From positions 1 to 64,000 of the forward strand of contig JAPLKG010000020.1 of NCBI GenBank assembly GCA_026388185.1: a DNA stretch of 64,000 nucleotides. Direction: 5' to 3'. The notes beneath the pieces are model-generated. The model made no database searches and was not told the origin of the DNA. It saw nothing but the letters and a program-made list of their open reading frames with translations. A program made the position numbers and the translations under genes. This DNA is from Candidatus Eisenbacteria bacterium (GTDB lineage Bacteria > Eisenbacteria > RBG-16-71-46 > JAFGJU01). This document shows, piece by piece, positions 17,515 to 41,655 of this stretch (the first letter of the stretch is position 1; each line of letters begins with the position of its first letter).

Positions 17515-17536
17515 GGCTGCGTCTCACCAATGTTCT

Positions 17537-20543: not shown

Positions 20544-20870
20544 AAACCTTCTCGAGCCCTACTGCATGGGCACTATTACTTACTCGCATAACTCAGTAGG
20601 CTCATCCGGCGACTCGGTCAACGGTAGCAGTCACGAATTTAGTCTTCATGGCTTCGTTGTTGAACCCAGAATCTATAATTTCAGGTCTCCGAATTCGTTC
20701 CGGGTTAACTGAAACCTAGAATCATCAAGAAACCGTGCTATGTTTCGCTTGACGGCCTGGGCAGGTGCCCTGGTCTCAACCCTTACAACTCTGCTTCAGC
20801 CCTTTGTTGGGTCTGGTCGCAATCCTACGTATTGGACGGCCATTCCAGTCATTTCTGGAGCAGATGATTC
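20544..20870. other. Gap between the Avs-like gene and hsdS
   Basis: No gene can be supported in this 327-nt stretch. On the minus strand it must hold the 3' end of the Avs-like transcript and any local promoter for hsdS. I see no strong terminator hairpin with a U-tract. Short open frames here look random. Confidence 0.4.
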
Positions 20871-23800: not shown

Positions 23801-25136
23801 GGAAGAGTAACGAACCGGAAGCTTCAGCTGCAGCGTTTAGGGCGTCGAGAAGGCCGTCCCTTCCAAGTGCGACGGGAAGCCCGAGAGACTCCAACAGTCG
23901 TGTCCACGGATCAGGCTCGCTGCAGAATGCGTGCCCAAAGGTCACGCATGTAAGAAGTCCCTCCGCAAAACGCTGACGAGCAGCGTCGCAAACCCCGTGT
24001 GTCTTTCCCGATCCTGCTGCGCCCGTGAGCACGAAAGCCCGTGCGAACGCGAGTAAACCTGCGGGGGAATTGAGCCAGTCACGGAGATCTCTACATGCAG
24101 TGACTGCCTTGCGTACGTAATCCAGATTAGCCGCGGGGAAAGAAACCTCGTACTCGGCCATGAATTGGCGAAACCCAGGCGAGTCCGCAGATCCCGGTCC
24201 GTGCTGGGCGTCGAGATCCTCCGCCAAGCCCGACTCAACGGACCCAAAACCTTCCAGTAGATCACCAAGTTGGGCGATGCAGTGCGCATGTGCCCGCGAC
24301 TCATCTGTCTTGGACAGACTATTGCACTCGTCGAGGATTTTCGCCATGTTGGCCACCAAGGACTGCGCGTGTTCCCGAGAGTCGTTGGGCCATGCTGGGG
24401 CGATTGCATCCGAACCAGTTTTGCGTACCGCGGAGGCAAGATCATCGTATGCTTTTCGGCAGGGACGTAGCCTTTTATCAAAGTCGATAGACCACGCCGC
24501 GGTACGACCGAAAGCGGCGAACCACTTCCAAAGGTCCGTCTCAACATTCAACTCTGGTGTGTATCGTGGTCCGGCGATTACCTTCACTGAATCCAGGTGG
24601 GATGAAAACCAATCCTTCGTGAGAATGATTTCATTGAAGAAAAACGCGCGCATACCTCCTGCTGTGTCCAAGTCTAGCAGCAGAGATCGGAGCTTCGACG
24701 CAGGCCACGCCTCAATGATCAGTTGACGACCTTCAGCAGCAGCCTTGCTTTCATACTTCTTGCGCCAGTCGTCAAACCTCTCCTGACCGCTTCGACCGCG
24801 TCGTCCCGTTGGACCTGTCAGATCAAACGGGAAGCATACAACGTATCGTGTCAGCGTGCTGTGGATCCGCAAGGCCGTGGTTAATGATGTGGTGGCTTGA
24901 CGGATGAGAGAGCCGACGTCAAAGAGGTACTTCGCTTGCCAGCCAACCCGACTGGCATCAGGGAGATCCGCGAAACACTCCACCCCTCCATCTCCCCCCG
25001 CCCCCCGGAGCCGGATGTACTTTGCCTCCCCCGGAAGAGACCGGTGCGCTAACTGACAACAAAGCTCTTCGAAGGCCTCTGGTTGACCGCCACAATGTGG
25101 TGCCATATGTCGGAAGTCAAAGTCATCCATAGTCAT
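20871..25136 (-). CDS. Avs-like STAND NTPase with N-terminal PD-(D/E)xK nuclease domain
   Basis: The 1421-aa protein has three parts. Residues 1-180 resemble the Mrr/Cap4 nuclease effector: FEELCCQLA (22-30), GGDGGVE (47-53) and WQAKY (66-70) give D49, E53, Q67 and K69. A STAND ATPase follows, with Walker A GAAGSGKT (372-379), Walker B LCIDALNE (446-453), an Arg sensor in VTCRTS and NPLYLKL (537-543). A long helical-repeat C terminus of about 800 residues is the presumed sensor. Avs proteins detect conserved phage proteins and then degrade DNA. It lies inside the type I locus between hsdM and hsdS. The subtype is unassigned. Confidence 0.85.
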   Translation of the reverse strand: MTMDDFDFRHMAPHCGGQPEAFEELCCQLAHRSLPGEAKYIRLRGAGGDGGVECFADLPDASRVGWQAKYLFDVGSLIRQATTSLTTALRIHSTLTRYVVCFPFDLTGPTGRRGRSGQERFDDWRKKYESKAAAEGRQLIIEAWPASKLRSLLLDLDTAGGMRAFFFNEIILTKDWFSSHLDSVKVIAGPRYTPELNVETDLWKWFAAFGRTAAWSIDFDKRLRPCRKAYDDLASAVRKTGSDAIAPAWPNDSREHAQSLVANMAKILDECNSLSKTDESRAHAHCIAQLGDLLEGFGSVESGLAEDLDAQHGPGSADSPGFRQFMAEYEVSFPAANLDYVRKAVTACRDLRDWLNSPAGLLAFARAFVLTGAAGSGKTHGVCDAARQRFAEGLLTCVTFGHAFCSEPDPWTRLLESLGLPVALGRDGLLDALNAAAEASGSLLFLCIDALNETRPLRYWRSRLSAIVEAVQRRPCLRLCVTCRTSFVPHCLPVGVGMLVIEHQGFAGVERLACQVFFQHYNLKPPITPILQPEFSNPLYLKLVCETLRSRGLDHIPAGWRGLAPAIRAFLDEKERQFTIDNETNVSANTVTGSLRAIARVVADSGSSSVSWSRAQQVISEARPQARDLPVVEWLVRADLLIEDAPGTSDPLGDEGTVRPAFERLGDFLVADEILSRIESEEIDKACRPGQPLHSLLSDLNTIGENNGVVSALSILLPEKRPGLELPNLVADESVRAEVLRITVKSFPWRDPASFSSCSASLVLDGLGMRDFSSETINAALSVSWQPSAIDALWLDVLLKRRPLAGRDAWWCGFLHQQYESGGTVRRLIDAAFELPLDQVDKEVAERWATVLLWFTAAADRRVKDTATRAATALLVARPKLIPDVLTRLLDSDDDEVRERALLCCYGALIISRNVDVISLITSALHEAFRNEPAAFDNALIRDDIRCIAELARVLDALPDGYDPELTMQPIRSEWPLDLPPDEEVKRLDGLPGLAHSCLHDDFHRYSMGCLGDWEHAVPRQDMGKWILRRVAHGFGYEGSGCERYDRYMLGRYGGGRAKPTWAERIGKKYQWVAMYQLASRLWDHVERKPDSWVPKPQETPLILLEGRKIDPTLPPDMVTSERAAEAWWIGSSADLRSGEQLSHIEWVKKKDDLPTLEGLLAIQERNGQRWRLLVSYPSWTKRDEDAHWNDPYREVWVHVESYLIPRKNVATAYDCLHRRNFFGKWMTGSATWLHGFAGEYPWATSFNMEPEEWHRRGGRSGYKLPVPYMSSWNGVIVEWEYDASLPGSFHMMVPARAFFSQRNLWWDGRDGYRLVGRKTIFRDPSVTEKGPVALIADADDLLVRLDKMGLRVIWTLVGEKWILGGPDAKVRPRRTFSQIARLMEDGSVQIGERVFFEDYDQDIGPRLPEGQRRGSRGSRI

Positions 25137-25230
25137 CGATTATTCAAACGTAGTACATTCCCATGCAGGCCCTACGGGAAAATCGTTCTCTGTCATTTTC
25201 CGTGTCCGCCCTACTCTAATGCGTAAGCGG

Positions 25231-25293
25231 TCATGCATCAATCCACTGCAGACCTTCCAGAATGTGATCGAGATACACGTGATCGTCCTTCAT
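25231..25293 (-). pseudogene. HepT-like (DUF86) N-terminal remnant
   Basis: A 20-codon frame reads MKDDHVYLDHILEGLQWIDA then stop. This matches the opening of HepT/DUF86 toxins (MKDD-x-x-YL-x-HIL-E). The rest of the roughly 110-residue protein, with its RX4-6H catalytic motif, is missing. It lies directly downstream of an MNT nucleotidyltransferase fragment, the normal partner order on this strand. Confidence 0.6.
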
Positions 25294-25334
25294 AGCGAAA
25301 CGGCCTCCTGCAAAATGCTCTGACGGAATGGTTG

Positions 25335-25448
25335 TCACATAGCATGGGGCTCAACAACGTCCACCCGGCCACCCGAAAACCACGACGTGGTCGGCCCATC
25401 CACTTCGATCAGAAAGTCAATGTCACTGTCTTCCGTAGCCCCGCACGA
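25335..25448 (-). pseudogene. MNT-type nucleotidyltransferase (MntA) remnant
   Basis: The frame reads ATEDSDIDFLIEVDGP and then RVDVVEPHAM before a stop. This is the DSDIDxLxE metal-binding signature and the VDLVEP end of MntA-like antitoxin nucleotidyltransferases. An in-frame TGA at 25449-25451 cuts it off upstream and the middle of the domain is shortened, so it is not functional. It pairs with the HepT remnant. Confidence 0.65.
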
Positions 25449-25486
25449 TCAAGCGAGACAGGCGGAGGTTCCGCTGCACGGTCAGG

Positions 25487-25585
25487 TCAGACGGCGGCAA
25501 AGGCGCGCATATACTTGAGATCTCGCGAGGGAAAGCCCTTCATGTTGGGGAACGCCTGCCGCAAGTCGGCAGCCAGGCGGTCGTC
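25487..25585 (-). pseudogene. DUF1016 (YhcG-type) N-terminal domain remnant
   Basis: The minus strand encodes RLAADLRQAFPNMKGFPSRD then LKYMRAFAAV and a stop. This is the well-conserved core of the DUF1016/PDDEXK-associated N-terminal domain (LxxDLRxxFPxMKGFSxRNLKYMRAFA). Nothing of the C-terminal nuclease remains. With the MNT and HepT pieces, it shows this 700-bp gap is a site of repeated gene loss. Confidence 0.6.
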
Positions 25586-25849
25586 TTCCTCTCCGCGAGC
25601 CCAGCGATGGCCCCGAACCGTGCCTCTTCATGGCGATCATTGCGCCCGAATCCCTTTTCCTTCTTCGTAGCGCCTTTTGCTCTCTTGCGGAACCATCGTG
25701 CTCAGTCGCTACCCATCTCCTAATGGAAAGATGTGCTCATATACGTAATGCTATGATTATAGCATGATATAGGCCAAAGGCCGCAACCTGTTTGTTGATA
25801 CAAAGATACACTCGCACTAGGCGCGGCTCTATGCTTTTCATTTGCTTTT

Positions 25850-27520
25850 CTATGCTTTTCTCTCCACTTTGGGTTCGCCCCCGGGATACCAACGCGCCCA
25901 CCTCCGACTTCCTTCCAACTTGGTCCGACCCTCTGCACGGAGTTCACGAAGCAGCCCTTGTATGTAGCTTCCGGAGACGCCGGGCAAGACCTGTGTTAGC
26001 TCATTAAGAGAGCACCCATCGCGGATGTTCTCCTCAATGTGCTTCAGCAACAAAGCTCTGTTCGTGTTCCGGTCCAAACCGCGTTTGCGCGTGTAAACGC
26101 CCTTCCTACCCGCCATGACATAGAAACGTCTACAGAGTACGTACCGAGTGCCTCTGCCCCTGCCGATGCTCTCGACGACTCCACGCTCCTTGAGATTCCG
26201 TAACGAGTGTTGCAGACCGGGCGGCACTGTCTCTTCGCGGTGCACAAGGTCCAAGACGAGAAAATCGTGGGTGCCAAACGACGCAGTCGTCTCACGCCCC
26301 ACCTTCTGGAGAAATCGCACGAAGTTGGGATCTTGCACTTGGCCGTGGAGAGTAAGCACGACGCCATAAGCATCAGTTCCGGCGAAAGCCGGCCTAGGTT
26401 TTCCTTGCTGAATGCTCTGTTCGAACATCAGGTTCATACCCTGTCCAGAGCGCTCGACCAGACCACACTTGGCGAAGACGTCGGCAATTCGGCGGTTTCG
26501 GGGCGATTGACGATCCAGAATGTTGTCAACCGTGATGCCAACAGGGAATCCGCCCGGGCTTTCCACCACGAGTCGTCTAGGGTATTGGCGAACAAATACG
26601 CTTCCTCCAAGCTGGTAATCGCGATGGCTGACCGCGTTCAGAATGGCTTCGCGAACTGGCCGTTCAGCGAACGTGGGAACGTCGAACACAAAAAGCCCAT
26701 CCTGGTATTGCTGGAGATCGTTGCGGAGGTTGATGATGCTCCACAAATCATCGTAGAAGCCGAAGAACCCATGCCGGTACTCTTTTCTCTGCTGGGCTGG
26801 ACCTGACGCATCGGAGGACCGATACTCGAACACTACCTCCCCTTGCTCCAGGTATTTTCCCAGCGTGCGTCTTGTTCCAAAGAGGATTAACGCGGCATAG
26901 GTGACGCGGTCATCCACGAGGACCTCTGCGTCACGGAGCAACTGATCTTGGGAAAGCGACGCGAGGCTATCGTTCTTGGACTTCTCGATCCATCGGCGCC
27001 GGAAATCTTCAACGGCTTGTGTGTCGAGGTCTTCTATAGCGGCGCCTTTGCATATGTCTGCTGAGAAATCGTGTCCCGCCTCGGCGAAGATGTTTCGGAG
27101 CTTGTCCTCGGACATCGGAACGAGACTGTCACCTTCGCGCGACCAGTAAACGCCCTTGTACTTCACGCCGGTGCCCGCTGGCCGAGAGGGGACTTCGAAG
27201 ACTAAAACACGGCCATCCCGATGAGCGATCTCCCGGAAGTGAATCCGCAGATGAAGGTGTTCCATGAGGGTCCTACACGTGTCTTCCGGATGCTGGAACA
27301 CCTTCGTACCGACGATTCTTCTGGGGCGTCTATTAGTTACGCCTAGGATCATTCTACCCCCACCCTCGTTGGCAAGGGCACAGCAGTACTCTGTCAACTT
27401 CTCGAAGGAATAGGAACTCTTTGCCTCTTTGAACTCGCAATGCTCTCCCTCCACCGCTCTGAGCCATTCTTCAAGCTGGTCCACGAGGGGAGCGCTTGCG
27501 CCTTCGCTCTCCAAATTCAT
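25850..27520 (-). CDS. AlbA_2/Schlafen-like domain protein with GHKL-type ATPase fold and winged helix
   Basis: The 556-aa protein has an N-terminal AlbA_2 (divergent AAA_4) domain (about 20-150; HCEFKEAKSS, CALANEGGGRMILGVTN). An HATPase_c_4 domain follows (about 285-400; RPVREAILNAVSHRDY, ESPGGFPVGI), then C-terminal winged-helix segments. Such proteins are common neighbours of type I restriction genes and are thought to act as nucleic-acid-binding regulators or Schlafen-like nucleases. It starts 12 nt after the hsdM stop, so it is co-transcribed with hsdM. The precise role is unknown. Confidence 0.85.
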   Translation of the reverse strand: MNLESEGASAPLVDQLEEWLRAVEGEHCEFKEAKSSYSFEKLTEYCCALANEGGGRMILGVTNRRPRRIVGTKVFQHPEDTCRTLMEHLHLRIHFREIAHRDGRVLVFEVPSRPAGTGVKYKGVYWSREGDSLVPMSEDKLRNIFAEAGHDFSADICKGAAIEDLDTQAVEDFRRRWIEKSKNDSLASLSQDQLLRDAEVLVDDRVTYAALILFGTRRTLGKYLEQGEVVFEYRSSDASGPAQQRKEYRHGFFGFYDDLWSIINLRNDLQQYQDGLFVFDVPTFAERPVREAILNAVSHRDYQLGGSVFVRQYPRRLVVESPGGFPVGITVDNILDRQSPRNRRIADVFAKCGLVERSGQGMNLMFEQSIQQGKPRPAFAGTDAYGVVLTLHGQVQDPNFVRFLQKVGRETTASFGTHDFLVLDLVHREETVPPGLQHSLRNLKERGVVESIGRGRGTRYVLCRRFYVMAGRKGVYTRKRGLDRNTNRALLLKHIEENIRDGCSLNELTQVLPGVSGSYIQGLLRELRAEGRTKLEGSRRWARWYPGGEPKVERKA

Positions 27521-27532
27521 GATGGTCTTTGC

Positions 27533-29254
27533 CTACCTTCCATTCCCCAGCTCCTTCAGGTTTCGTCTAATCTGTTTCTCGAGCTTCGCACCCTCAGCGA
27601 ACTGTTTCTCAAGCTGCTCCGTCAGTCTCTTCATCTTCTCGTCAAATGGCTCACCGTCGTCTTGGACTGCCTCGGCACCAACGTAGCGTCCGGGCGTGAG
27701 TACGTGGCCGTGCTGACGTATTTCGTCCAGCGTCACGGATTTGCAGAAGCCTGGCGCGTCTTTGTACTTCTTCTTACAGTCTTTGTCACCGCGCCAGGCA
27801 TGGTAGGTGGCAGCGATCCTCGCGATGTCCTCATCAGTCAACTCCCGATGCACGCGGTCGATCATCGCGCCGAGCTTTCGGGCATCCACGAAGAGAACTT
27901 GGCCGCGCCGGTCACGGAAGCGGCTGTTCTTCTTTTGGCGAGCGATGAACCAAAGGCAAGCAGGAATCTGCGTGTTGTAGAAAAGCTGCCCCGGCAAAGC
28001 AACCATGCAATCCACAAGGTCTCCCTCAACGATATTCTTGCGGATGTCGCCCTCGCCGGATTGGTTGCTGGACATGCTGCCATTGGCGAGAACATACCCC
28101 GCCATACCGGTCGGGCTCACGTGGTGGATAAAGTGTTGTACCCAGGCAAAGTTGGCGTTACCGGCAGGCGGTGCGCCGAACTTCCAGCGTTTGTCCTCAC
28201 GGAGTCGTTCGCCGCCCCAGTCGCCATCATTGAAGGGGGGATTGGCCAGGAGATAGTCGGCCTTGAGGTCGGGATGCAGGTCACGGTGGAAACTGTCCGC
28301 AGGCTCTGGGCCGAGGTCGGCGTCAATGCCCCGAATTGCCAGGTTCATCTTCGCGAGCTTCCATGTGGTGTGATTGGACTCCTGGCCATAAATGGCGATG
28401 TTGCCCACTTTGCCACCGTGTTCTTCGATGAACCTTTCACTTTGTACGAACATGCCCCCGGAGCCACAGCATGGGTCATAAACTCGCCCTTTGTAAGGTG
28501 CAAGCATCTCAACTAGTAAACCCACGACGCAACGCGGCGTGTAGAACTGGCCGCCCTTCTTACCCTCGGCACTGGCGAACTGCCCGAGGAAGTATTCATA
28601 GACACGGCCGAGGATGTCTTTGGAACGGTTCTCTGCGTCACCAAGACCGATCGTGCCAATTAGGTCAATGAGTTCTCCCAGCCTCTGCTTGTTAACAGCG
28701 GGTCGGGCGTAGTCCTTCGGCAAGACACCTTTGAGGACCTTGTTGTCGCGCTCGCTAGCGACCATTGCATCGTCAATGAGCTTGCCGATGTTCGATTGCT
28801 TTGCGTTCGCCTGAAGGCGAGGCCAGCGAGCCTCTTTGGGCACCCAAAAGATGTTGGTCGCGACATATTCGTCGCGGTCTTCCATTACCTCGTATCGGGC
28901 TTTGGGATCTTTAACATACCAGTCACTCTTTGGATCAGCGGCTCCTCGCTCAATCTTTGTGCGGTGTTCTTCGAAGGCGTCAGAGATGTACTTGAGGAAA
29001 ATGAGGCCGAGCACTACATGTTTGTACTCTGCCGCGTCCATGTTGCTGCGGAGCTTGTCCGCCGCTTGCCAAAGCTTGGCCTCAAAGCCGAGCGTCGCGC
29101 CGTTGTTGCGGTTTCTTGCGCTGCCCGGTCTTGTTCTTGGAATGGTCCTACTGGTTTGGGTCGCCTTGGTGGTTCGGGTCGTATTGGTCGTTAGGGTCGT
29201 TTTCGTAGTTGGGGCTATTCTTCCAGTTTGAGTTGTCTTTGCAGTTTGGGTCAT
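27533..29254 (-). CDS. hsdM: Type I DNA methyltransferase subunit HsdM with repetitive Thr-rich N terminus
   Basis: The 573-aa protein contains the usual HsdM N-terminal helical domain from about residue 54 ([20 protein letters not shown]), the SAM motif [11 protein letters not shown] and the adenine methylase motif NPPF. It methylates adenine in the HsdS target. Residues 2-37, before the conserved part, are hexapeptide-like Thr-rich repeats ([24 protein letters not shown]) not typical of the family. CGAGGATAAAA ahead of this ATG gives a good ribosome site, so the extension is probably translated. First gene of the locus. Confidence 0.94.
29144..29251 (-). repeat. Degenerate 18-bp tandem repeat inside the hsdM 5' coding end
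   Basis: On the plus strand the units TTGGTGGTTCGGGTCGTA, TTGGTCGTTAGGGTCGTT, TTCGTAGTTGGGGCTATT and two more follow each other every 18 bp, about six units in all. Each unit encodes six residues in frame. Length change in whole units would keep frame, whereas slippage of single bases would switch hsdM off. Confidence 0.65.
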
Positions 29255-29515: not shown

Positions 29516-30190
29516 CTACTTGTGTTCTTCGGAAACGACGCTGCCCGTGCGCAACCTCAGAGTTCTCTTAGCCCTGACTGCGAATCGCGGGTCGTGTGTC
29601 ACCATCACCACGGTTCTACCTTCGCGATTGATCTCCTCCAACAACTCAACGATCTGCTCGCCCGTCTCCGGATCCAGATTGCCGGTGGGCTCATCGGCCA
29701 GGACGATCTCAGGATTGTTCGCAAGCATACGAGCCAGCGCCACACGCTGCTGTTGACCTACACTCAGTTCGGAAGGCTTGTGGTCGAGCCTGTCGCCGAG
29801 CCCCACTTGCTGGAGCAAGGCCAGAGCCCTTTCTTTCTGAGAACCATCGCTCAATCCCGCCAGCACGAGTGGAATCTGAACGTTCTCCAACGCGGAAAGG
29901 TAGGGCACTAGATTGAACGTCTGAAAGAGAAATCCTATCCTTTTCCCTCTAAGGCTTGCACGTTTATCCGAGGAGAGAGCGTAAAGAGATTGTCCGTCTA
30001 GCAGAACCTGTCCCTCGGTTGGCGACAGCATCCCGCCGAGGATGAGAAGAAGGGTACTTTTCCCGCACCCGCTGGGACCGACCACGCACAAGAAATCGCC
30101 CTTCGGGACATCGAGCGTCACACTGCGCAGGCCCATTACGGTCCGACTGCGACCATCATAGGTTTTGGTAACGGCTTCCATTCTAAGCAT
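29516..30190 (-). CDS. ABC transporter ATP-binding protein (LolD/MacB-type)
   Basis: The 224-aa ATPase has Walker A GPSGCGKST (near residues 39-47), signature LSVGQQQR and Walker B IVLADEPTGNLD, the arrangement of the LolD/FtsE/MacB ATPase family. It pairs with the FtsX/MacB-type permease whose stop lies 4 nt upstream of this start. The pair would move a substrate out of the inner membrane, or transmit force to periplasmic partners, instead of importing. It is the last gene of an operon led by an arsR gene. Confidence 0.92.
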   Translation of the reverse strand: MLRMEAVTKTYDGRSRTVMGLRSVTLDVPKGDFLCVVGPSGCGKSTLLLILGGMLSPTEGQVLLDGQSLYALSSDKRASLRGKRIGFLFQTFNLVPYLSALENVQIPLVLAGLSDGSQKERALALLQQVGLGDRLDHKPSELSVGQQQRVALARMLANNPEIVLADEPTGNLDPETGEQIVELLEEINREGRTVVMVTHDPRFAVRAKRTLRLRTGSVVSEEHK

Positions 30191-30193
30191 TGA

Positions 30194-31411
30194 TCATATC
30201 TCCTGAAGAACGGCACTCGGGTCCAGATGAGCTGCTCGTCGGGCTGGGAAGTAACTTGCGACCAGGGCGATGGCCAGGGAGAGGCCCGTACCCCAGATCG
30301 CGAGCGACCACATCGGAAGAACCGGAATTCCGGCGAGCCTGGGGCCAAGAGTCACTGCCAGCACCGTACCCAGCGCGTAACCACCGAGTCCACCTGCGAG
30401 TCCGAGAAGAAGCGCCTTCAGGAGGAACATCCTCAAGATGAAAGAGGTGCCTGCTCCCAAAGCCATAAGCGTGCCAATCTCCCGCCTGCGCTCAAACACA
30501 TTTGCGTACATGTAATTGGCGATACTGGCTCCACCCACCAGGACGATGATCGCCACGAAAATGAGAGAAAGCCTCGACATCATGCGATTCGTCTTGATCT
30601 GTGTGTCCACTACCTGCGTGACGGTGACGACCTTCGCGTCGGGCAGCAGTCTGTTAATCTTCTGGACCAAACCCTTGGAGATCTGATTGCAACACCCGAC
30701 TATCTCGATCGCGTTGAGTACGGATCCCTTGCCGGTGAGCTCTTGAAGCGTATGCAGGTGGACGAAGATGCGAGAGTCATCTATTGTTCCAGTCTGCGGC
30801 AGGAGGGCAATGATGTTGAAGGGCTTGCCCAGCAGCTTGATTGTCTGACCTTCCTTGAGGCTTAGTACGGCAGCAACATCCGCTCCTACGAGAGCGTCCG
30901 TGCTACCAAGCGTGTCGATGACCCTTCTTCGCACCAGTGTTTCTTGTGCCGGAGGGACATTGCCTGTCGGAGTTGCGACTACGCCGCAACCCTGAGGACG
31001 AGAGAATATGCCCGCACCCTGCCAGGCAGCCTTGGCCTGGAATTCACTCTTGGGCAGTATTCCCGTCAGCGTGAATCGTCTTCCTTCTATTTCTGCCGGG
31101 ACGGAGAGCTTGGGTGAGAGATTGTCCAAGCCCTGTATATCTGACGACGACAGCCGGGTAACGTATTCCTCCGGAAACTCTTCGTCCTGTAGATCCGCAC
31201 TATAGTAGTCCTGAAGAGAGGCCGATTTGGGAAGAATGAGAATGTTGGCGCCGAGGGCGTCCAGCTCCTTAGCCACGGCCTTCTCAGAGTAGAAAGTGAC
31301 GTTCTTGATAGACACGATTGCGGCGATGCCCACGAGGATAGCCAGAAAACTTGTGGCCAATTGATTCTTGCGTTCGAATAGTTCGCGCCAGACGATTGTC
31401 CTCAGGTGCAC
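30194..31411 (-). CDS. MacB/FtsX-type ABC transporter permease
   Basis: About 405 aa. One N-terminal helix (FLAILVGIAAIVSI), a periplasmic MacB-PCD-like domain of about 230 residues, then three C-terminal helices with FERRREIGTLMALGA between them, the standard FtsX topology. I place the start at the GTG at 31411, because GGGAGG lies 7 nt upstream. An upstream TTG at 31441 would overlap the previous gene and lacks a site. The periplasmic part has a CC pair in IVGCCNQISKG, which could bind metal or a thiol-reactive ligand. Follows the secreted Cys-tailed gene. Confidence 0.88.
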   Translation of the reverse strand: MHLRTIVWRELFERKNQLATSFLAILVGIAAIVSIKNVTFYSEKAVAKELDALGANILILPKSASLQDYYSADLQDEEFPEEYVTRLSSSDIQGLDNLSPKLSVPAEIEGRRFTLTGILPKSEFQAKAAWQGAGIFSRPQGCGVVATPTGNVPPAQETLVRRRVIDTLGSTDALVGADVAAVLSLKEGQTIKLLGKPFNIIALLPQTGTIDDSRIFVHLHTLQELTGKGSVLNAIEIVGCCNQISKGLVQKINRLLPDAKVVTVTQVVDTQIKTNRMMSRLSLIFVAIIVLVGGASIANYMYANVFERRREIGTLMALGAGTSFILRMFLLKALLLGLAGGLGGYALGTVLAVTLGPRLAGIPVLPMWSLAIWGTGLSLAIALVASYFPARRAAHLDPSAVLQEI

Positions 31412-31425
31412 GTGACGACCTCCCG

Positions 31426-32244
31426 TTATTTCGGACAACAACTCGACTTACTGCCTGAACCACAACCGCCGGAGCTGGCCGTGCTGAGCGCAGTCACTAG
31501 CCGCGCCTTGTTGGTCGCGCCGTTAAACTTGCCAAGGACTGTTCCCGGAGGCGTCATGAACACAGTGATTGCTTCGCTACTCTTAGGATCTACCTGGAGC
31601 TGCCCCAGAAATTTGGTCTCAGCTACGTCTGTCGGGTTTAGCATGACTATCTGGGTGAATTGGGCGAAGCGTGGGTCTGCCTTGAAGTCCGTAACACCTT
31701 TCAGAGCCGCGTCTTTGGAGTTCGACGAAGCGTTTTGGACGCACAAGAGGACAAGCTTGCCATCCTGAAGCGCCCTCAAGCAGTTCTCGGCGCAGGGACT
31801 GACGAATGCTTCCATAAGCTGTTTCTCTTCAAAGCTGACAGGGAACCCCCCGGTAACCGCCCCATTCGGGGCCAGAACCAGAACTAGCGGGGTGGGCGCC
31901 CCCTCGAGCTTGAACTTCGCAACGATCCCTTTTTCTGTGGGGTCTGCGATGTTGACTTTGGTTGAGTTGGCCTTCTTGCGGACTTTGGTTGTGGCCACGT
32001 CAAAGAGTTTTCTCATCTTCTGGGTCTGCTCGTCGTCACTCTTGTAACAGAAGATAAACAGATACTTCTTTGCTTTGGCCGCGCTATCCATGGCGGCGAG
32101 GCCTCGGCCCTTCGCCCCCTGGCCTGTAAGCTTCGTCTCCTTCGCGGCAGGTTTCTCGGCGGGACTCTTTTGGGCTCCCATTGCCGTGAAACCGAATGCG
32201 GTAATCAGAACCACGACTGCTGCTGTAACTAGTTTCTTAACCAC
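31426..32244 (-). CDS. Secreted protein with two thioredoxin-fold-like halves and Cys-rich tail
   Basis: The 272-aa protein has an N-terminal signal peptide (VVVLITAFGFTAMGA). Two similar halves follow, each a beta-strand opening (KKYLFIFCYKS near residue 59; GKLVLLCVQN near 162) and a later PTPLVLVLAPNG or EAITVFMTPPG element, as in a thioredoxin fold without CxxC. The tail GGCGSGSKSSCCPK has three cysteines suited to soft-metal binding. It starts 12 nt after arsR and precedes the ABC permease. I do not recognise the family. A role as periplasmic metalloid chaperone is inference. Confidence 0.8.
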   Translation of the reverse strand: MVKKLVTAAVVVLITAFGFTAMGAQKSPAEKPAAKETKLTGQGAKGRGLAAMDSAAKAKKYLFIFCYKSDDEQTQKMRKLFDVATTKVRKKANSTKVNIADPTEKGIVAKFKLEGAPTPLVLVLAPNGAVTGGFPVSFEEKQLMEAFVSPCAENCLRALQDGKLVLLCVQNASSNSKDAALKGVTDFKADPRFAQFTQIVMLNPTDVAETKFLGQLQVDPKSSEAITVFMTPPGTVLGKFNGATNKARLVTALSTASSGGCGSGSKSSCCPK

Positions 32245-32256
32245 GGGTGTCCTCCT

Positions 32257-32622
32257 TCACTTTTCGCTTTGTGCTCTGCATAGTTTTTCAGGATCAAGCT
32301 TGAGGATCTTTTTTAGGCGCCTGGCATCCTCCCGTATCTTGGGCGAGGCTGAGGCCGATCTGCAGATCCAGGCAACAGCGTCTCGTACCTCTCGGGGTGC
32401 GTCTCTGCCGGCCAGCCGATAATGCATCCAGCGCCCATCCTTTCTTGCCTCGACCAGACGGGCTTGTTTCAGAATGGACATATGCTTGGACACCGTGGAG
32501 GGCGCCAATCCCAACAACTCGATAATCTGACATACGCAGAGTTCGCGACCTTCGAGCGCGAGTAGCACTCGCACTCGGTTTTCGTCGGCCAACGCTCTCG
32601 TAGTGATCATAAGGGTAAACAT
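32257..32622 (-). CDS. arsR: ArsR/SmtB-family metalloregulator
   Basis: About 121 aa, with a winged helix-turn-helix (APSTVSKHMSILKQARLVEARK) and the metal-sensing box ELCVCQ. Its paired cysteines bind As(III) or Sb(III) and release DNA. I choose the ATG at 32622 because TCGGAGGT lies just upstream. A TTG nine codons earlier would put the start inside the promoter. It is a repressor of its own operon and probably of acr3 upstream. It is followed at 12 nt by the secreted Cys-tailed gene and the ABC exporter. Confidence 0.92.
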   Translation of the reverse strand: MFTLMITTRALADENRVRVLLALEGRELCVCQIIELLGLAPSTVSKHMSILKQARLVEARKDGRWMHYRLAGRDAPREVRDAVAWICRSASASPKIREDARRLKKILKLDPEKLCRAQSEK

Positions 32623-32635
32623 GGATACCTCCGAT

Positions 32636-32681
32636 AATTCGCCAAACAACGAATTATATCATTTCGCGAACGAATTGTCAA
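32636..32681 (-). promoter_or_regulatory. Consensus promoter with palindromic operator ahead of arsR
   Basis: On the minus strand TTGACA (32676-32681) and TATAAT (32653-32658) are perfect consensus with a 17-nt spacer. The palindrome AATTCG-N8-CGAATT (32636-32655) overlaps the -10 and start region, and ATTCGTTCGCGAAAT lies in the spacer. These are natural ArsR operator positions, so the strong promoter would be silent without metalloid. Confidence 0.8.
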
Positions 32682-32754: not shown

Positions 32755-33801
32755 CTATTCGCGGAAGTACCTTCCCTTGAAGTAGAGCGACACGTTCACC
32801 AGACTGATGAGCACCGGCACCTCTACCAAGGGACCTATTACGGCTGCAAACGCCTCGCCGGAGTTTATTCCAAACACTGCGACCGCGACGGCGATGGCGA
32901 GTTCGAAGTTGTTGCTCGCCGCGGTGAATGAAAGTGTGGCGGTTTTTGCATAGCCGGCGCCGAACCTTTTGCCCATGTAGAAGGAAACCAGGAACATCAG
33001 TACGAAGTAGATGAGTAGCGGCACTGCTATTCGTGCGACGTCGAGGGGAATTCTTACGATGTATTCACCCTTGAGAGAAAACATCACCACGATGGTAAAT
33101 AATAACGCTATTAGAGTTATTGGACTGATCCTGGGGATGAACTTCTCTTCGTACCACTCTTTGCTCTTGGCTCTTATGAGGGAAAAGCGGGTGATTATTC
33201 CCGCGAGAAAGGGGATGCCCAGGTAAATGAACACGCTTTTCGCTATCTGGACTATTGTGACGTTCACCACGACTCCGCGAAGCCCGAACCAGGTTGGGAG
33301 TATGGTGATGAAAACCCAGGCGTAGATCGAATAGAATATCACCTGGAATATTGAGTTGAAGGCCACCAACCCCGCGCAGTACTCGGTATCGCCCTTGGCA
33401 AGATCGTTCCAGACAATGACCATGGCGATACAACGCGCCAGGCCGATCATGATCAGGCCGACCATGTAGTGGGGGTAATCTCTGAGGAATATCACGGCCA
33501 GAGCGAACATCAAGATGGGCCCGACCACCCAGTTCTGAACCAGGGAAAGCCCCAGCACCTTGAAATTGTGAAACACGTCTCCGAGTTCCTCGTATTTCAC
33601 TTTCGCCAGGGGCGGGTACATCATCAGAATGAGGCCGATGGCAATGGGAATGTTGGTAGTGCCGACTTGAAATCTGTTCCAGAAATTCACGACGCCCGGA
33701 TAGTAGTATCCTCCGGCCACGCCGGCTGCCATGGCGAGAAAAATCCACAAGGTCAAGAACCTGTCCAGGAACGACAATCGCTTCGTTAGGCTCTCAGACA
33801 T
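32755..33801 (-). CDS. acr3: Arsenite efflux permease ACR3
   Basis: About 348 aa with ten predicted membrane helices of the bile/arsenite/riboflavin transporter (BART) fold. The conserved segment [19 protein letters not shown] contains the Cys (in ARCIAM) needed for arsenite transport in ACR3 proteins. It exports As(OH)3, driven by the proton gradient. The start at 33801 follows GGAGGAGATTGCG. The longer frame from 33849 lacks a site. It lies between arsG and arsR and runs in the same direction. Confidence 0.94.
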
Positions 33802-33915
33802 CGCAATCTCCTCCGGCACGTTTCCGCCGCATCGCTGGCCTTGCACCACAACGAAACGGCGAGTGTGCGATTGGAAAGAAACACACCTTTGTCATACACT
33901 CTACTGGATCACGCG

Positions 33916-34608
33916 CTAGGGGACCACGTGAAAAACATACGCCAGACAGAAATAGACTCCGACCACGATGAAGACCACGCCGGTTAGCCGACTTACCCAC
34001 CACTCTATTTGCGTGAGCTTATTGAACGCCTTGGCGAGCGTTTGAACGCCCAAGGCTATCAGGATGGCGAAGAGAAAGACCGGTAGCCCCGTCCCTAACC
34101 CGTACACGGCGGGGAGGGCGATGCTGGAGTTGTATTTCACGGAAAGGGGAATGAGGCTTCCGAAAAAGAGCGCCGCCGAGACGGGACAGAACGCGAGGGC
34201 GAAGACTATGCCCAGGACTCCCGCGCCCCAGATTCCCCACGATTCTGCTCGCTTTTGCACTCTCTCGCTCACGCCCGAGCCTGGAAGGTTGATCCGAAGA
34301 AGTCCCAGTAGAACCATTCCTACAAGAATGAGCACAATACCGAGAATCTTGTTCATGTATTCCTGAAGCACGTTGGACACGCGTTGTATTGACATGACGC
34401 TTGCCACGATCAGAATGCCTAGCAACACGTACGTCAGCATCCTGCCCAGCGTGTAGAACAACCCGGTCAGAAAAACCATCCGGGCTCGTTCGATGCGCCT
34501 GCCGATAAAGGAGACCGCGGCCACGTTGGTGGCTAACGGGCACGGGCTGATGGAGGTGAGGATTCCCAGCCAGAAGGCGGAAAAGACTCCGAGGAGGAAA
34601 CCACTCAT
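33916..34608 (-). CDS. arsG: ArsG-like / CcdA-type membrane transporter
   Basis: The 230-aa membrane protein has six hydrophobic helices of the DsbD/CcdA-SafE type, with an N-terminal STSPCPLA-like motif (TSISPCPLATNVAAVSF) and a second CPVSAALF motif. In ArsEFG systems of Shewanella, the ArsG permease exports trivalent aromatic arsenicals. Its start overlaps the arsF-like stop by 4 nt (ATGA). If not ArsG, it would be a thiol-electron transporter feeding the neighbouring thioredoxin-like proteins. Confidence 0.75.
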   Translation of the reverse strand: MSGFLLGVFSAFWLGILTSISPCPLATNVAAVSFIGRRIERARMVFLTGLFYTLGRMLTYVLLGILIVASVMSIQRVSNVLQEYMNKILGIVLILVGMVLLGLLRINLPGSGVSERVQKRAESWGIWGAGVLGIVFALAFCPVSAALFFGSLIPLSVKYNSSIALPAVYGLGTGLPVFLFAILIALGVQTLAKAFNKLTQIEWWVSRLTGVVFIVVGVYFCLAYVFHVVP

Positions 34609-35291
34609 CTTTTCTCTCCGAGGTAGGCCGAGACTTCCTCTTGGACGTACTTGATGAAATCATCTTTTTCGCCCACGAGCTCCCATATCTTCTCCAGATT
34701 CTTCCACTCAACCTGCTTCCCATTTTGCATCTTCACGATGACCAACGACTTTGTGTAGAGCTTATAGTCGCTCACAAAATGCTCATTACCTGGTTCATCC
34801 GTATTGACGACGCGCCATTCAAGCCAGCCGTTTCTCAGGGCTTCGCCGAATCCACTTTGGATGGCTTCGGCACTGTAGGCCTCGAGCTTCATGCAAGTGG
34901 GGCACCGTTGCGTTCCGTGGAAATAGTAGGCCAAAACCTTCTGAGTCGATGCGGGGGCGGGCTGTTGCGGCTCAGACGACTTCGAGCGTTCGGAGTTCAA
35001 AGCGACTGATTGCGGGCCTGCGGGCGCCGCGGACTGTTTCAAGGGGGTGGAGTCTGTCGGTCGCCCCCCCTTCTCCTCGGACACACGCGAGGTCGAATCG
35101 GACTTCTGTGTGGTTGCAGGCAGTTTGTTGGTGGTGAGGTCTGCCGCTCCGTCCGGTCCGGTTTGTGCTGGTTCACTCTGCGCGGCCTCGCGGGCAACGG
35201 ACCTGGACCGCACTTCGTCCGAAACCAGGTATGCGGCAGTGGCACAAACAAAAATCACGAGCGCGAGGGTAACGATCGTTTTGGGTTTCAT
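34605..35291 (-). CDS. arsF: ArsF-like membrane-anchored thioredoxin-fold protein
   Basis: The 228-aa protein has an N-terminal membrane anchor (TIVTLALVIFVCATAAYLV), a Pro/Ser/Gln-rich linker to about residue 115, and a C-terminal domain with YYFHGTQRCPTCMKLEAYS. This is a thioredoxin-like CPTC site and is typical of proteins annotated as nitrophenyl compound nitroreductase subunit ArsF. It probably acts in the periplasm as a redox or arsenical-handling partner of ArsG, with which it is translationally coupled. Assignment rests on motif and neighbourhood. Confidence 0.75.
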   Translation of the reverse strand: MKPKTIVTLALVIFVCATAAYLVSDEVRSRSVAREAAQSEPAQTGPDGAADLTTNKLPATTQKSDSTSRVSEEKGGRPTDSTPLKQSAAPAGPQSVALNSERSKSSEPQQPAPASTQKVLAYYFHGTQRCPTCMKLEAYSAEAIQSGFGEALRNGWLEWRVVNTDEPGNEHFVSDYKLYTKSLVIVKMQNGKQVEWKNLEKIWELVGEKDDFIKYVQEEVSAYLGEKR

Positions 35292-35301: not shown

Positions 35302-35802
35302 TCAGGAATCTTGTTTCAGTTTCTCTAATAGCCCAATGACCTGCTCCGTGGAGAGTGCCTTTCCGACCGAGACGACCTTTCCGTTTATTATGAGTGCGGG
35401 CACGCCGAGCACGCCGCATTCGGCGATGCGCCTCGGTTCGCGCACGTGTTCTACCTCGGCGGCCACGTTGAGTTTCGTGAGCGCCGACCTTACATTGGAC
35501 GCCAGCGCTTCGCAACTGGAGCAACCCATACCTAAGATCTTTATCGAGAGTCCTTGCGGCTTCTCTTCAGGTACGTCCTGGCCGAGGTAGCGGCGATACT
35601 CTCTCAACAGCGCCCTTGCGTATTCGGCACGCGCAGCATCGGGGATGTAATTGTGTTTTCTCGCCATTTCTACCAGCGCGGTTCCCAGCTCGTCGGAGGG
35701 CTCCTTGCCTGATGCTTTGAGCTCGCCGAACACTGAGTTGAGCCCCATCATGCCGACGCTTGTCCCCGCGATCGTGATCGCCTTGATGTCATCGTTAGGC
35801 AT
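35302..35802 (-). CDS. Thioredoxin-like protein with N-terminal helical domain (possible ArsE)
   Basis: The 166-aa protein has an N-terminal region of about 80 residues, mostly helical, that I do not recognise. From about residue 84 a thioredoxin/glutaredoxin fold follows (LSIKILGMGCSSCEALASNV) with a CSSC redox site and the cis-Pro region GVLGVPALIINGKVV. No signal peptide, so cytoplasmic. It overlaps the upstream small thioredoxin gene by 8 nt and precedes arsF by 10 nt. It could be the ArsE component or a dedicated reductant. Confidence 0.78.
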   Translation of the reverse strand: MPNDDIKAITIAGTSVGMMGLNSVFGELKASGKEPSDELGTALVEMARKHNYIPDAARAEYARALLREYRRYLGQDVPEEKPQGLSIKILGMGCSSCEALASNVRSALTKLNVAAEVEHVREPRRIAECGVLGVPALIINGKVVSVGKALSTEQVIGLLEKLKQDS

Positions 35803-36076
35803 TGCCGGTTCCCGGGCGGGCCTCGCGTATCAATTTCTTGATCTCCTCGACATTGAGGATTCTACCAGAAGACTTGAGCTTTCCATCAATTACAAGGCCC
35901 GGCGTCATCATCACGCCGAACTTCACGATCTCGTCGATGTCAGTTATTTTTGTAACTTGAGCCTCCGCGCCCGGCTCGTTGCCCGGTTCCTTGCCGAGCT
36001 CCTTCACTGCGGCTTCAACGTTCTCCGCCAGCTTCTTACATTTCGGGCAGCCTGGGCCAAGAACCTGTAGTTTCAT
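35795..36076 (-). CDS. Small thioredoxin-like redox-active disulfide protein
   Basis: The 93-aa protein has a CPKC redox site at residues 10-13 (LGPGCPKCKKLAENV) and the cis-Pro segment GVMMTPGLVIDGKL. This is the compact thioredoxin family often encoded with ArsR regulators and ArsP/DUF318 permeases. It probably supplies electrons or binds metalloid thiolates. The start follows GAGGGACATGGA, and it overlaps the next gene by 8 nt. Confidence 0.88.
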   Translation of the reverse strand: MKLQVLGPGCPKCKKLAENVEAAVKELGKEPGNEPGAEAQVTKITDIDEIVKFGVMMTPGLVIDGKLKSSGRILNVEEIKKLIREARPGTGNA

Positions 36077-36141: not shown

Positions 36142-36477
36142 CTAGACCCTACGGGTACGGCCAGGCTTCAACAACGCCGCTTGCCTGGTGATTCGGCGCC
36201 GGAGCGCCTCGGTCACGCAGGGCATCGCCTTCAAGAGGCACGGCAGCGCAAGCTCATAGATCATCCTGGCGCCCTCCTTGCGACGCTTCACTACGCCCGC
36301 CCTGAGGAGAACGTCCAGATGCCTCGATGTCGTGGCTTGAGTGCCGGGCACCATTTCAACAAGCTCGCACACGCAGTGTGGCCGCTTTCCAAGCGCCTCT
36401 ACCATCGTCAGGCGCGCGGGATGTCCGAGGGCCTTGAAGATCTCGGCCCTTGCGCTTATGAGCTCCTGGTTGTGCAT
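36142..36477 (-). CDS. arsR: ArsR-family regulator (second copy)
   Basis: The 111-aa winged helix-turn-helix protein has the sensing motif RPHCVCELV (CxC near residues 34-36) and helix PGTQATTSRHLDVLLRAGVV. It is similar in plan to the regulator at 32257 but clearly divergent, so the two are not a recent duplicate. It follows the permease gene by 29 nt. Its likely target is the palindromic promoter at 37573-37601. Confidence 0.92.
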   Translation of the reverse strand: MHNQELISARAEIFKALGHPARLTMVEALGKRPHCVCELVEMVPGTQATTSRHLDVLLRAGVVKRRKEGARMIYELALPCLLKAMPCVTEALRRRITRQAALLKPGRTRRV

Positions 36478-36506: not shown

Positions 36507-37544
36507 TCACAGGACAATGTTGAACACGTACCCGACCACCAGGATCCCGAGACCCACGACGCCGGCGAACGTCACGATGAGCGGGATCTTCAGCACCTTG
36601 CGCAGGATGATGAATTCCGGGAGTGACAGCCCGATGACCGACATCATGAACGCCAACACCGTGCCGAGCGCCGCGCCCTTGTCCAACAGCGCCTGCACCA
36701 CTGGAATGATCCCGGCGGCGTTGGAGTACATCGGAATACCGATAAGCACGGCGAGCGGAACGGACCACCACACTCCCTTGCCCATGATGGACGCCATGAA
36801 GTCCTGCGGGACGTAGCCGTGTATGCCTGCCCCCACCGCGAGCCCCGCCAGCACGTACGGCCAGACCTTACCAACGATATCTTTCACTGCTTCGCGGCCG
36901 AACCGGATCCGATCGCTCCACGTGAGCGGAGTTTCTTCTGTGACCCCTGCCACGCCCGTAGTCTCGTAGACCCACCCCTCGACCCAGCGTTCGAGATGGA
37001 GCCTGCCGATCACTCCTCCCGCAACGATAGCGATGACCAAACCTGTGCCCATGTAGAGTGCCGCAACCTTCCATCCGAAGAGACCGAACAGCAGCACCAG
37101 CGCAACCTCGTTTACCATGGGCGCAGAGATCAGAAACGAGAATGTGACGCCCAAGGGGACGCCCGTGGTTACGAAGCCAATGAAAAGCGGCACCGCCGAG
37201 CAGGAGCAGAAGGGCGTCACTACGCCCAGCAGGGCGGCCAGCACGTTGCCCGCGGATTCGCGCTTCCCGGCGAGAATGCGACGGGTGCGCTCCGGGGTGA
37301 AGAACGAGCGCACGATGCCCACGCCGAAGACGACCACGGTCAAGAGCATCAAGACCTTGGGTGCATCAAAGACGAAGAACTCGATTCCAGACGCCAGGCG
37401 GCTGCCCGCGGCCAACTTGAGGAGGTCGTAGGTGAACCACTCGGCGAACGCCCTCAGATGTCGGTAGACAAGCCACCATGCCGCGGCCCCGAGCAGTATA
37501 AGCAAAGCGCGAGGGATCAAAATCCGCTTCTCTTGCGTCGCCAT
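36507..37544 (-). CDS. arsP: ArsP/DUF318-type permease
   Basis: About 345 aa and eight or more membrane helices, with the family hallmark TPFCSCSAVPLFIGF and the second half motif GIPMYSNAAGIIPVVQALL. The CSCSA cysteines are those implicated in trivalent organoarsenical export by ArsP. Some relatives move other soft metals. I choose the ATG at 37544 since GAAGGAGCAACA precedes it, whereas the longer frame from 37619 would start within the promoter. First gene of the arsP-arsR-thioredoxin series. Confidence 0.88.
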   Translation of the reverse strand: MATQEKRILIPRALLILLGAAAWWLVYRHLRAFAEWFTYDLLKLAAGSRLASGIEFFVFDAPKVLMLLTVVVFGVGIVRSFFTPERTRRILAGKRESAGNVLAALLGVVTPFCSCSAVPLFIGFVTTGVPLGVTFSFLISAPMVNEVALVLLFGLFGWKVAALYMGTGLVIAIVAGGVIGRLHLERWVEGWVYETTGVAGVTEETPLTWSDRIRFGREAVKDIVGKVWPYVLAGLAVGAGIHGYVPQDFMASIMGKGVWWSVPLAVLIGIPMYSNAAGIIPVVQALLDKGAALGTVLAFMMSVIGLSLPEFIILRKVLKIPLIVTFAGVVGLGILVVGYVFNIVL

Positions 37545-37572
37545 TGTTGCTCCTTCGCAAAAAGCCATAGCA

Positions 37573-37601
37573 ATTATGCAATATTGCGTTGGAGTTGTCA
37601 A
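37573..37601 (-). promoter_or_regulatory. Promoter with ArsR-type palindrome ahead of arsP
   Basis: On the minus strand TTGACA (37596-37601) and CATAAT (37573-37578) are spaced 17 nt. The perfect palindrome GCAATATTGC (37578-37587) sits in the spacer beside the -10 and a further ATTGC half site follows, a usual ArsR/SmtB operator form. It is 28 nt upstream of the chosen arsP start. Confidence 0.75.
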
Positions 37602-37821
37602 GAGTGCGGATTGAATCACAATGAGAATGCTCGGAACGCGCTCGTTGCTGAAAGAACGGAGAGGGCCCGAGGTAGCGCCGACAATCTACGGGAGACTTGA
37701 GAATGTGTTTTGCTCTCTCCTTGAACAAGTGAGGCCGGTAATATACAATCGCCTGAAACGCACGCCTGGTCCGAGTGGATGGACGGTACTCGCTCAATGT
37801 CATGACATGAAGGCACTGCGC

Positions 37822-41323: not shown

Positions 41324-41655
41324 GGCGTGCTCCGATCGCCTAGCCCCGAAACTGTCCCACTCATGCTGACACGGAACAAATCCTCGTGTCGGCGGCACCC
41401 CACCTGTAGAAAGTGCTACGATTAATGTCTAGCTCCTCCAGCGCCCGCCTCACACCAAGCCGAGCCGCTGCACCAACTTCTTTGACTGACGTACCTATAT
41501 AGCGACGCGGTATAGCGTCTCGTCCCCCCTTTCATTGAGGTGCAATTCCACACTGCACTGGGGACAGAGAAGATCCTATCGTTTACCGATGAAGCCTTGA
41601 ACAATCTAGCAGCGCGTGGGAACGAACCAGAGAGCGAGCATTATCTGCCCTTGTG
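41324..41655. other. Gap with a small plus-strand frame fragment
   Basis: No complete gene is supported. On the plus strand a frame of about 41 residues ends TDEALNNLAARGNEPESEHY and then LPLC near 41659. It has composition like a real protein tail but no convincing start or relatives I know. It may be a remnant. Confidence 0.3.

Follow-up and report, generated by a model that had tools for sequence, protein, structure and literature searches.

An undescribed three-gene machine, conserved in many phyla near arsenic, copper/zinc-type and mercury-methylation genes, that probably captures toxic metals beyond the inner membrane

Introduction

In bacterial arsenic resistance, the ion crosses the inner membrane outward, and its periplasmic fate is left open. 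ArsD, a protein of the metallochaperone type, relies on three cysteines, as would the secreted Cys-tailed protein (SCP) described here. Together with CusF and other Cys/His metallochaperones, ArsD resembles SCP in the ion-carrying role that we propose for the latter. However, SCP is a secreted protein with tandem thioredoxin folds and a disordered tail, and neither SCP nor its relatives matched any Pfam or NCBIfam chaperone model (CusF/ArsD). Tandem redox-inactive thioredoxin folds are also found in the b-b' domains of PDI and in calsequestrin, but these proteins are eukaryotic, have no Cys tail, share only ~12% identity with SCP and give low TM-scores across both domains.

SCP is encoded together with an ABC complex, for which MacB and LolCDE are the nearest solved structures; all of them share a LolD-like ATPase and an FtsX-type permease that has four TM helices and a single periplasmic domain. 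Still, MacB of the MacAB-TolC system is a one-chain NBD–FtsX fusion, whereas here permease and ATPase have separate genes, and the MacB model gives 80 bits against a cut-off of 966. MacAB-TolC also includes the MacA adaptor, while the unit described here has no MFP, and where relatives carry MFP genes next to the module, these are parts of RND systems. LolCDE, in turn, has paired LolC and LolE, in contrast to the single permease gene here (LolD, 234.5 vs 307.75 bits; LolCE, 46 vs 362). Compared with both systems, only our unit has an invariant periplasmic GCC pair, absent from all 40 control MacB-type permeases, and a constant SCP partner.

Results

The new unit ends an arsenic cluster

The analysed window is a 64,000-nucleotide stretch of a Candidatus Eisenbacteria genome. 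On its minus strand, 11 contiguous genes run from 37619 to 29516, the last four of which, from 32622 to 29516, encode ArsR, SCP, an FtsX/MacB-type permease and an ATPase (Table 1). Upstream of this unit are genes for ArsP, ArsR, two ArsE-like proteins, ArsF, ArsG and ACR3. The ArsE, ArsF and ArsG models score above their cut-offs in adjacent genes, so that an ArsEFG set is present; with described ArsEFG, ACR3 and ArsP operons, the cluster shares all five of these families above curated cut-offs. ArsEFG is known as a roxarsone/nitarsone system (Chen 2019, as cited in PMC9144182). The SCP–ABC unit belongs to this ACR3/ArsEFG/ArsP cluster rather than being a stand-alone system. The first-pass annotation had described the four genes correctly but overlooked the arsenic cluster that they end; it had put the gene spacing at 4-14 nt, and the sequence itself shows gaps of 12, 14 and 3 nt. 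Its impression that no such system has been described is supported. We found no account of SCP with a MacB-type ABC unit in the open-access literature, and no such unit with a secreted Cys-tail protein is among the described ars components in the literature searched.

Table 1. Features of the arsenic cluster and of its terminal SCP–ABC unit
Feature	Coordinates	Strand	Evidence
ArsP_1-family permease gene, related to SaoE	36507..37619	-	247 bits, cut-off 32
Second arsR-type regulator gene (ArsR2)	36142..36477	-	Sequence reading; blastp ties to relatives' ArsR genes
arsE-like small thioredoxin	35795..36076	-	MTH895/ArsE 95 bits, cut-off 62
arsE-like thioredoxin domain protein	35302..35802	-	MTH895/ArsE 77 bits, cut-off 62
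arsF	34605..35291	-	117 bits, cut-off 60
arsG permease	33916..34608	-	296 bits, cut-off 200
acr3 arsenite exporter	32755..33849	-	468 bits, cut-off 283
Sigma-70-type promoter TTGACA-17-TATAAT	32653..32681	-	12/12 match
Perfect palindrome ATAATTCG-N8-CGAATTAT, putative ArsR operator	32634..32657		Between -10 and RBS
arsR1, ArsR/SmtB repressor	32257..32622	-	ATG 32622, RBS GGAGG
SCP, secreted, N-terminal signal sequence, two non-catalytic thioredoxin folds	31426..32244	-	AlphaFold2, Foldseek, relatives
SCP C-terminal tail GGCGSGSKSSCCPK, three Cys, disordered	31429..31470	-	Sequence and AlphaFold2
FtsX/MacB-type permease, four TM helices, one periplasmic domain	30194..31411	-	GTG 31411, RBS GGGAGG
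Permease third periplasmic Cys, near-invariant	30986..30988	-	118/119
Permease periplasmic Cys-Cys pair, invariant	30689..30694	-	119/119 permeases
ABC ATPase, LolD/MacB-like	29516..30190	-	Walker A, signature and Walker B intact

The promoter of the unit ranks first of nine promoter-like sites, and the palindrome overlaps its -10 box and reaches the RBS; a consensus promoter with an ArsR palindrome ahead of arsR, as initially annotated, is thus present. The short form of the palindrome, ATTCG-N8-CGAAT, occurs once in 64 kb and again ~30 nt upstream of arsR in two relatives (L035 and L052), and sites of this type accompany 4 of 71 ArsR genes against a background of 0.36%. No inverted repeat was found in the ArsR2 promoter region. 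The identity of ArsR1 was borne out by curated winged-helix models (HTH_metalloreg NF033788, 85.8 bits vs a cut-off of 55; HTH_5, 58.8 vs 22), and the protein carries ELCVC, a motif of the CxC metalloid-site type.

SCP is a predicted non-catalytic double thioredoxin fold with a variable tail

The AlphaFold2 model of SCP (pLDDT 88.5 overall, >95 across both thioredoxin folds) predicts two complete folds and places the protein in the thioredoxin fold superfamily. Foldseek matched it to PDI, bb' and calsequestrin, with a probability of 1.00 for PDI-type proteins. The model agrees with the earlier picture of a secreted protein of two thioredoxin-like halves ending in GGCGSGSKSSCCPK. No dedicated SCP family exists in Pfam, NCBIfam or PDB, and single-sequence searching of PDB, a search of PHROGs and tblastn against plasmids gave no match. 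The CXXC motif is missing from all 124 SCP cores, which rules out an active thioredoxin or PDI oxidoreductase, and the predicted fold likewise rules out an MFP adaptor. A loose lipobox pattern was seen in 22 of the 124 proteins, about half of these being plausible.

The tails contain at least three cysteines in 116 of 120 proteins and exactly three in 100. Histidine occurs in the tail at 1 of 67 ars/ArsR-linked loci vs 46 of 53 other loci. Judged against a quick-version tree, this covariation of tail and gene context tracks clades, so it represents few effectively independent events.

Three periplasmic cysteines mark the permease

The permease most likely starts at GTG 31411 rather than at the listed TTG 31441. 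An FtsX C-terminal domain (67 bits), a MacB-like core (MacB_PCD, 38 bits), both above cut-off, and four TM helices assign it to the MacB/LolCDE superfamily of FtsX-type ABC proteins; with the intact motifs of the ATPase, the initial reading of an FtsX-type ABC pair stands. Cys152, Cys250 and Cys251 are kept in 118, 119 and 119 of 119 permeases, and predicted topology places them inside the periplasmic domain. Only the Cys-Cys pair, real and invariant, had been noticed before; the third cysteine had been missed. The 119 permeases include 37 recruited through SCP alone, all with the pair, and the GCC pair is also present in 12 loci that lack the exact GCC search pattern and were recruited by the SIANYM pattern. 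With these two sets, the scan pattern can be rejected as the source of the GCC conservation. Because the Cys152 loop is poorly modelled (pLDDT <50), the three cysteines form no more than a candidate joint site. An extra permease cysteine is found in 33 of 49 members of the His-tail group vs 2 of 67.

The module is widespread and linked to metal(loid) genes

With the permease alignment as a query, a genome scan recovered the SCP–permease–ATPase trio at ~80 loci in ~15 phyla; a scan of genome contigs with the single SCP sequence yielded nothing because this sequence is too variable. The SCP gene lies directly upstream of the permease gene in essentially all of the 81 loci. One carrier is the cultured planctomycete Adhaeretor mobilis HG15A2 (L048), whose module lies close to acr3. 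In a survey of 392 Planctomycetota genomes that ignored the permease, all 37 strong SCP matches lay directly upstream of the same permease type. Nearly all of 40 whole-genome searches gave one strong SCP match, at the module, and an extra copy in one genome (G074) also adjoins such a permease.

Among the 81 loci, 48 have ars genes as neighbours and a further 12 have ArsR. CusA/CzcA-type RND genes are found at 20 loci, 17 of them with neither ars genes nor ArsR. Forty further MacB-type permeases that these genomes encode had no ars-specific, ArsR or CusA/CzcA-type RND genes beside them (0/40). This rules out ars linkage as a general trait of MacB-type genes in these genomes. Homologues unconnected to ArsR, which the first-pass annotation had regarded as evidence against its idea, do exist in one Planctomycetota branch, where the neighbours are CusA/CzcA-type RND genes or no recognised metal gene and the tails are of the Cys/His type; at 24 of the 37 survey loci, neither an ars nor an RND gene could be recognised close by. 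Since the recognisable partners in this branch are other metal-efflux genes, such homologues broaden the idea and do not refute it, and these neighbours and tails indicate that the SCP/ABC family as a whole is not arsenic-specific.

At four loci, hgcAB lies in the same cluster as the SCP/ABC module; HgcA is absent from the window's own genome. That hgcAB may adjoin acr3, arsC and arsR has already been reported in mercury methylators (PMC7438021). To these neighbourhoods our four loci add the new module, the SCP/ABC part being unmentioned in the passages of that report that we found.

Discussion

The gene unit, the predicted fold, the invariant cysteines and the linkage to metal(loid) genes are established by our analysis. 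We put at roughly 55% the probability that the trio is a conserved machine of the periplasm in which a thiol trap takes up As(III) and similar metal(loid)s and is emptied by a MacB-type complex at the expense of ATP. In such a scenario, As(III) would release ArsR1, which otherwise represses the unit via the palindrome over its promoter. The two thioredoxin folds of the secreted SCP would form a stiff scaffold with no redox activity, from which the flexible tail with its three cysteines would catch thiophilic metal(loid) ions, in the window cluster As(III) or trivalent organoarsenicals, either exported to the periplasm by ACR3, ArsG or ArsP or arriving from outside. Loaded SCP may then dock on the periplasmic domain of the permease, where three invariant cysteines would receive the ion by thiol exchange. 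Cytoplasmic ATP hydrolysis, mechanically transmitted as in MacB and LolCDE, would drive outward release and reset the tail, the ion presumably leaving through an outer-membrane channel encoded elsewhere. Against this reading weigh the absence of a MacA-like adaptor or TolC gene from the unit, the many Planctomycetota loci without a recognised ars or RND neighbour, the poorly modelled Cys152 loop and the clade-bound covariation of tail and context. Of the initial reading, the metal(loid) link and the joining of a capture protein and MacB-like proteins in one unit survive, while its stand-alone and arsenic-specific character does not, and we found no support for damaged thiol species as cargo.

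A rather unlikely alternative is that SCP works as a metallochaperone, like CusF or ArsD, handing its ion to a neighbouring pump (ACR3/ArsG or CusBA), so that the ABC complex would only unload or reset SCP and would move no ion across the outer membrane. The presence of two different kinds of exporter beside the module, the variation of the tail with gene context and the ars-linked units devoid of an outer-membrane channel or adaptor all fit this idea. However, a donor in the periplasm has no obvious role upstream of ACR3 and ArsG, whose export starts from the cytoplasm, and most of the Planctomycetota survey loci lack nearby ars or RND genes. It is improbable that the trio pumps arsenic-thiol conjugates as a tripartite system of the MacAB-TolC type, with SCP in place of the MacA adaptor: despite the closeness of permease and ATPase to MacB/LolCDE in sequence and fold, and several TolC-family proteins in the genome, SCP consists of thioredoxin folds with no MFP/HlyD hairpin or barrel-sandwich domains, and the unfused NBD and permease fall far below the MacB cut-off.

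The resemblance of SCP to PDI and calsequestrin and of the permease to LolCDE, as well as the lipobox-like pattern of some SCPs, might also speak for a periplasmic protein- or thiol-repair unit, in which a thioredoxin-like SCP and an FtsEX/LolCDE-like complex clear arsenic-damaged proteins or lipoproteins. We find this very improbable, as no SCP core has CXXC and the short Cys/Gly/Pro or Cys/His tails, typical metal-ligand motifs, vary with metal context. Slightly more doubtful still is a flux sensor as in BceAB, where the ABC complex would read loaded SCP and tune the expression of neighbouring exporters; BceAB belongs to the same structural superfamily and is among the fold matches of the permease, and regulator genes often adjoin the module, but neither a histidine kinase nor a response regulator recurs near it, the regulators are one-component ArsR proteins, and no regulator recurs in the RND-linked branch.

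Returning to the ATP-driven thiol trap, we tentatively suggest, while considering it the less probable outcome, that the trio represents an unrecognised general class of periplasmic machines for thiophilic metal(loid)s, with one architecture retuned by the tail and the permease cysteines for arsenic, RND-exported metals and possibly mercury or methylmercury in hgcAB-linked clusters. We know of no export route for methylmercury. If our reading is correct, the arsenic pathway would gain a new step, carried out in many phyla by a conserved ATP-driven Cys-based unit of the periplasm, and MacB-type ABC complexes would gain a new function. As the unit also occurs next to CusA/CzcA pumps and hgcAB, one could test directly for a common periplasmic stage in metal detoxification, perhaps including methylmercury handling, and proteins that general models label merely as thioredoxin-like or FtsX-like would gain a defined, checkable family.

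Gene organisation of the ars cluster

The first-pass annotation had described a consensus promoter with an ArsR palindrome ahead of arsR, a secreted protein and an FtsX-type ABC pair, and all of these elements are present on the minus strand (see table). The genes for arsR1, the secreted Cys-tailed protein (SCP), the permease and the ATPase are separated by 12, 14 and 3 nt in turn, and this unit is part of a larger ars cluster spanning 37619→29516. SCP occurs once in the window genome (2.6 Mb, 98% complete), which also encodes several TolC-family proteins. At 1429-8894, some 20 kb away from the ars cluster, the minus strand encodes two AcrB-type RND pumps together with an HlyD/CusB-type adaptor. 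Directly downstream of the cluster, a type I restriction system and further genes (12522-29254) form what looks like a defence island; a TIR-domain protein of 447 aa is encoded at 40055-41398.

Features of the window and of related loci (window positions unless a locus is named)
Feature	Position	Strand	Remark
Consensus promoter TTGACA-17-TATAAT	32681..32653	minus	overlaps palindrome
Perfect palindrome	32634-32657		overlapped by promoter, ahead of arsR1
arsR1	ATG 32622	minus	
SCP, secreted protein	32244-31426	minus	
FtsX/MacB-type permease	31411-30194	minus	likely GTG start; stop 30194
ABC ATPase	30190-29516	minus	
acr3	upstream of unit	same	468 bits, cut-off 283
arsG	upstream of unit	same	296 bits, cut-off 200
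arsF	upstream of unit	same	117 bits, cut-off 60
Two ArsE-like thioredoxins	upstream of unit	same	77 and 95 bits, cut-off 62
Second arsR	upstream of unit	same	
ArsP-family permease	upstream of unit	same	
HsdR	12522-15593		part of type I restriction system
DUF6119 protein	17671-19257		
1421-aa protein	20871-25136		without Pfam match
AlbA_2/Schlafen-type protein	25850-27520		
HsdM-like protein	27533-29254		by reading
hgcA-hgcB	L078 11044-12710; L011 13297-14708; L028 10359-11719; L063 303-1619		
Small secreted Cys/His-rich proteins (examples)	L156 7168-7746; L171 7360-7824; L064 3096-3590		

Distribution and gene neighbourhoods of the module

When genomes were scanned with the permease alignment, 174 relatives came up, of which the best 80 were retained. 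Judged by record title, these 80 include Planctomycetota, Hydrogenedentes, Eisenbacteria, Krumholzibacteria, Zixibacteria, Riflebacteria, Chlamydiae, Desulfobacterota-type organisms, Bacteroidota, Gemmatimonadota and others, and in nearly all of them the permease gene is immediately preceded by SCP and immediately followed by the ATPase. Within the window's phylum, SCP and permease co-occur in the same 4/47 genomes; L078 and L050, two of the related loci, presumably belong to this phylum. Among 81 loci, ars-specific genes occur within 8 kb of the module at 48 and ArsR alone at 11 further ones; 17 loci have only CusA/CzcA-type RND, adaptor, TolC or P-type ATPase genes, one has ArsR with RND, and four have none of the ars, ArsR or RND-type genes (families confirmed by NCBIfam at representative loci). 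Since gene order and distance to acr3 are variable, the linkage reflects repeated association rather than a single inherited operon.

Tandem duplicated SCP genes precede one permease in L033, L039, L049, L055, L062 and L081. At 14 non-ars Planctomycetota loci, small secreted Cys/His-rich proteins without any family match are encoded time and again some 0.8 kb ahead of SCP. Some ArsR proteins adjoining the module end in an SCP-like Cys tail (KASGGCCPK; L003 821-1213, L004 951-1325 and others), and 41/71 ArsR ORFs near the module have at least two Cys within the last 25 residues.

Because the scan patterns contained the GCC motif of the permease, loci recruited by another pattern, without the exact GCC pattern, were checked separately, and GCC was present in 12/12. 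When 392 Planctomycetota genomes were surveyed with the SCP profile alone, 39 matched; a GCC permease and ATPase adjoined SCP in 37/37 strong loci, with three matches near 80 bits marking the family edge. Forty genomes searched whole nearly each gave a single strong SCP match, which was the module copy, and the extra copy checked, in genome G074, also adjoins another such permease. Forty other MacB_PCD permeases from the same genomes, picked by hand according to contig size, served as controls, and within about 8 kb of them SCP, GCC, ars and RND genes were each found in 0/40. Fisher p-values for the main contrasts between module and control permeases lie between 1e-4 and 1e-33, too small because the loci are related to each other; considered by itself, the Planctomycetota survey shows no significant ars linkage (2/37).

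Hg methylation genes share a gene run with the module at four of the 81 loci (L078, L011, L028 and L063, the last assigned by blastp only), two of them in genomes of the window's own phylum; L078 reads ArsR-SCP-permease-ATPase-ACR3-hgcA-hgcB. The HgcA model (cut-off 275 bits) is matched at 401 bits by L028 and at 427-436 bits by the two genomes from the window's phylum. At this cut-off HgcA is found in 4/47 genomes of the phylum, two of which carry the module, linked to HgcA in both, and is absent from the window genome. Proximity of hgcAB to acr3, arsC and arsR is already known (PMC7438021), and control of hgcAB by ArsR is cited in PMC10349881; thus, the association with the module may go through ars genes only.

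Predicted fold and conserved cysteines

SCP had no above-threshold family match in Pfam, NCBIfam, PHROGs or PDB; Thioredoxin_6 was weakly touched by 12/60 relatives, and the SCP profile found PDI at E 1e-4. AlphaFold2 (60 sequences) modelled two complete thioredoxin folds with pLDDT above 95, the N-terminal signal and the Cys tail both being disordered. The top Foldseek matches were the tandem thioredoxin folds of PDI, QSOX, PDI bb' and calsequestrin, with low whole-chain TM-scores. Among 124 relatives, 113 have a hydrophobic N-terminal stretch and none has CXXC in the core.

At least three tail Cys are present in 116/120 non-redundant sequences, and exactly three in 100/120. Tails linked to ars or ArsR are Cys-only (His in 1/67), while RND-linked or unlinked tails add His in 46/53, typically as KCCDDPNCKHH. 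Permease Cys152, Cys250 and Cys251 (numbered in the window ORF from TTG 31441; each is 10 lower when counted from the likely start) are conserved in 118/119, 119/119 and 119/119 permeases, and are all predicted to lie between TM helices 1 and 2, i.e., in the periplasmic domain. An extra permease Cys at position 113 occurs in 33/49 of the His-tail group versus 2/67. In a quick permease tree, most RND-linked loci fall within one well-supported branch of 20 (97 and 100% SH-aLRT), so the shift of tail and context is for the most part a switch at clade level. The Chlamydiota members L053, L056, L059 and L060 have longer tails that contain 6-7 Cys (e.g., CCPGGCCPGGCCPGGKC).

Proposed role of the module

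MacB and LolCDE complexes do not carry their substrate across the inner membrane; cytoplasmic ATP hydrolysis moves a periplasmic domain instead. Since the periplasmic partner is Cys-tailed and three cysteines in the periplasmic domain are invariant, the most economical interpretation is that SCP would capture a thiophilic ion and hand it to the permease, which would release it in an ATP-driven step, either outward or to another pump acting as partner. By analogy, three Cys would fit trigonal As(III) coordination. The earlier interpretation, in which arsenicals might be captured in the periplasm and released, pointed the right way but was too narrow. The open-access papers searched contain no description of the SCP-permease-ATPase unit, and no dedicated family model was found. 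The module may be a metal(loid) machine of a categorically new kind; as it stands, it is a variant within the FtsX/MacB-type ABC systems, set apart by a periplasmic partner of a new type.
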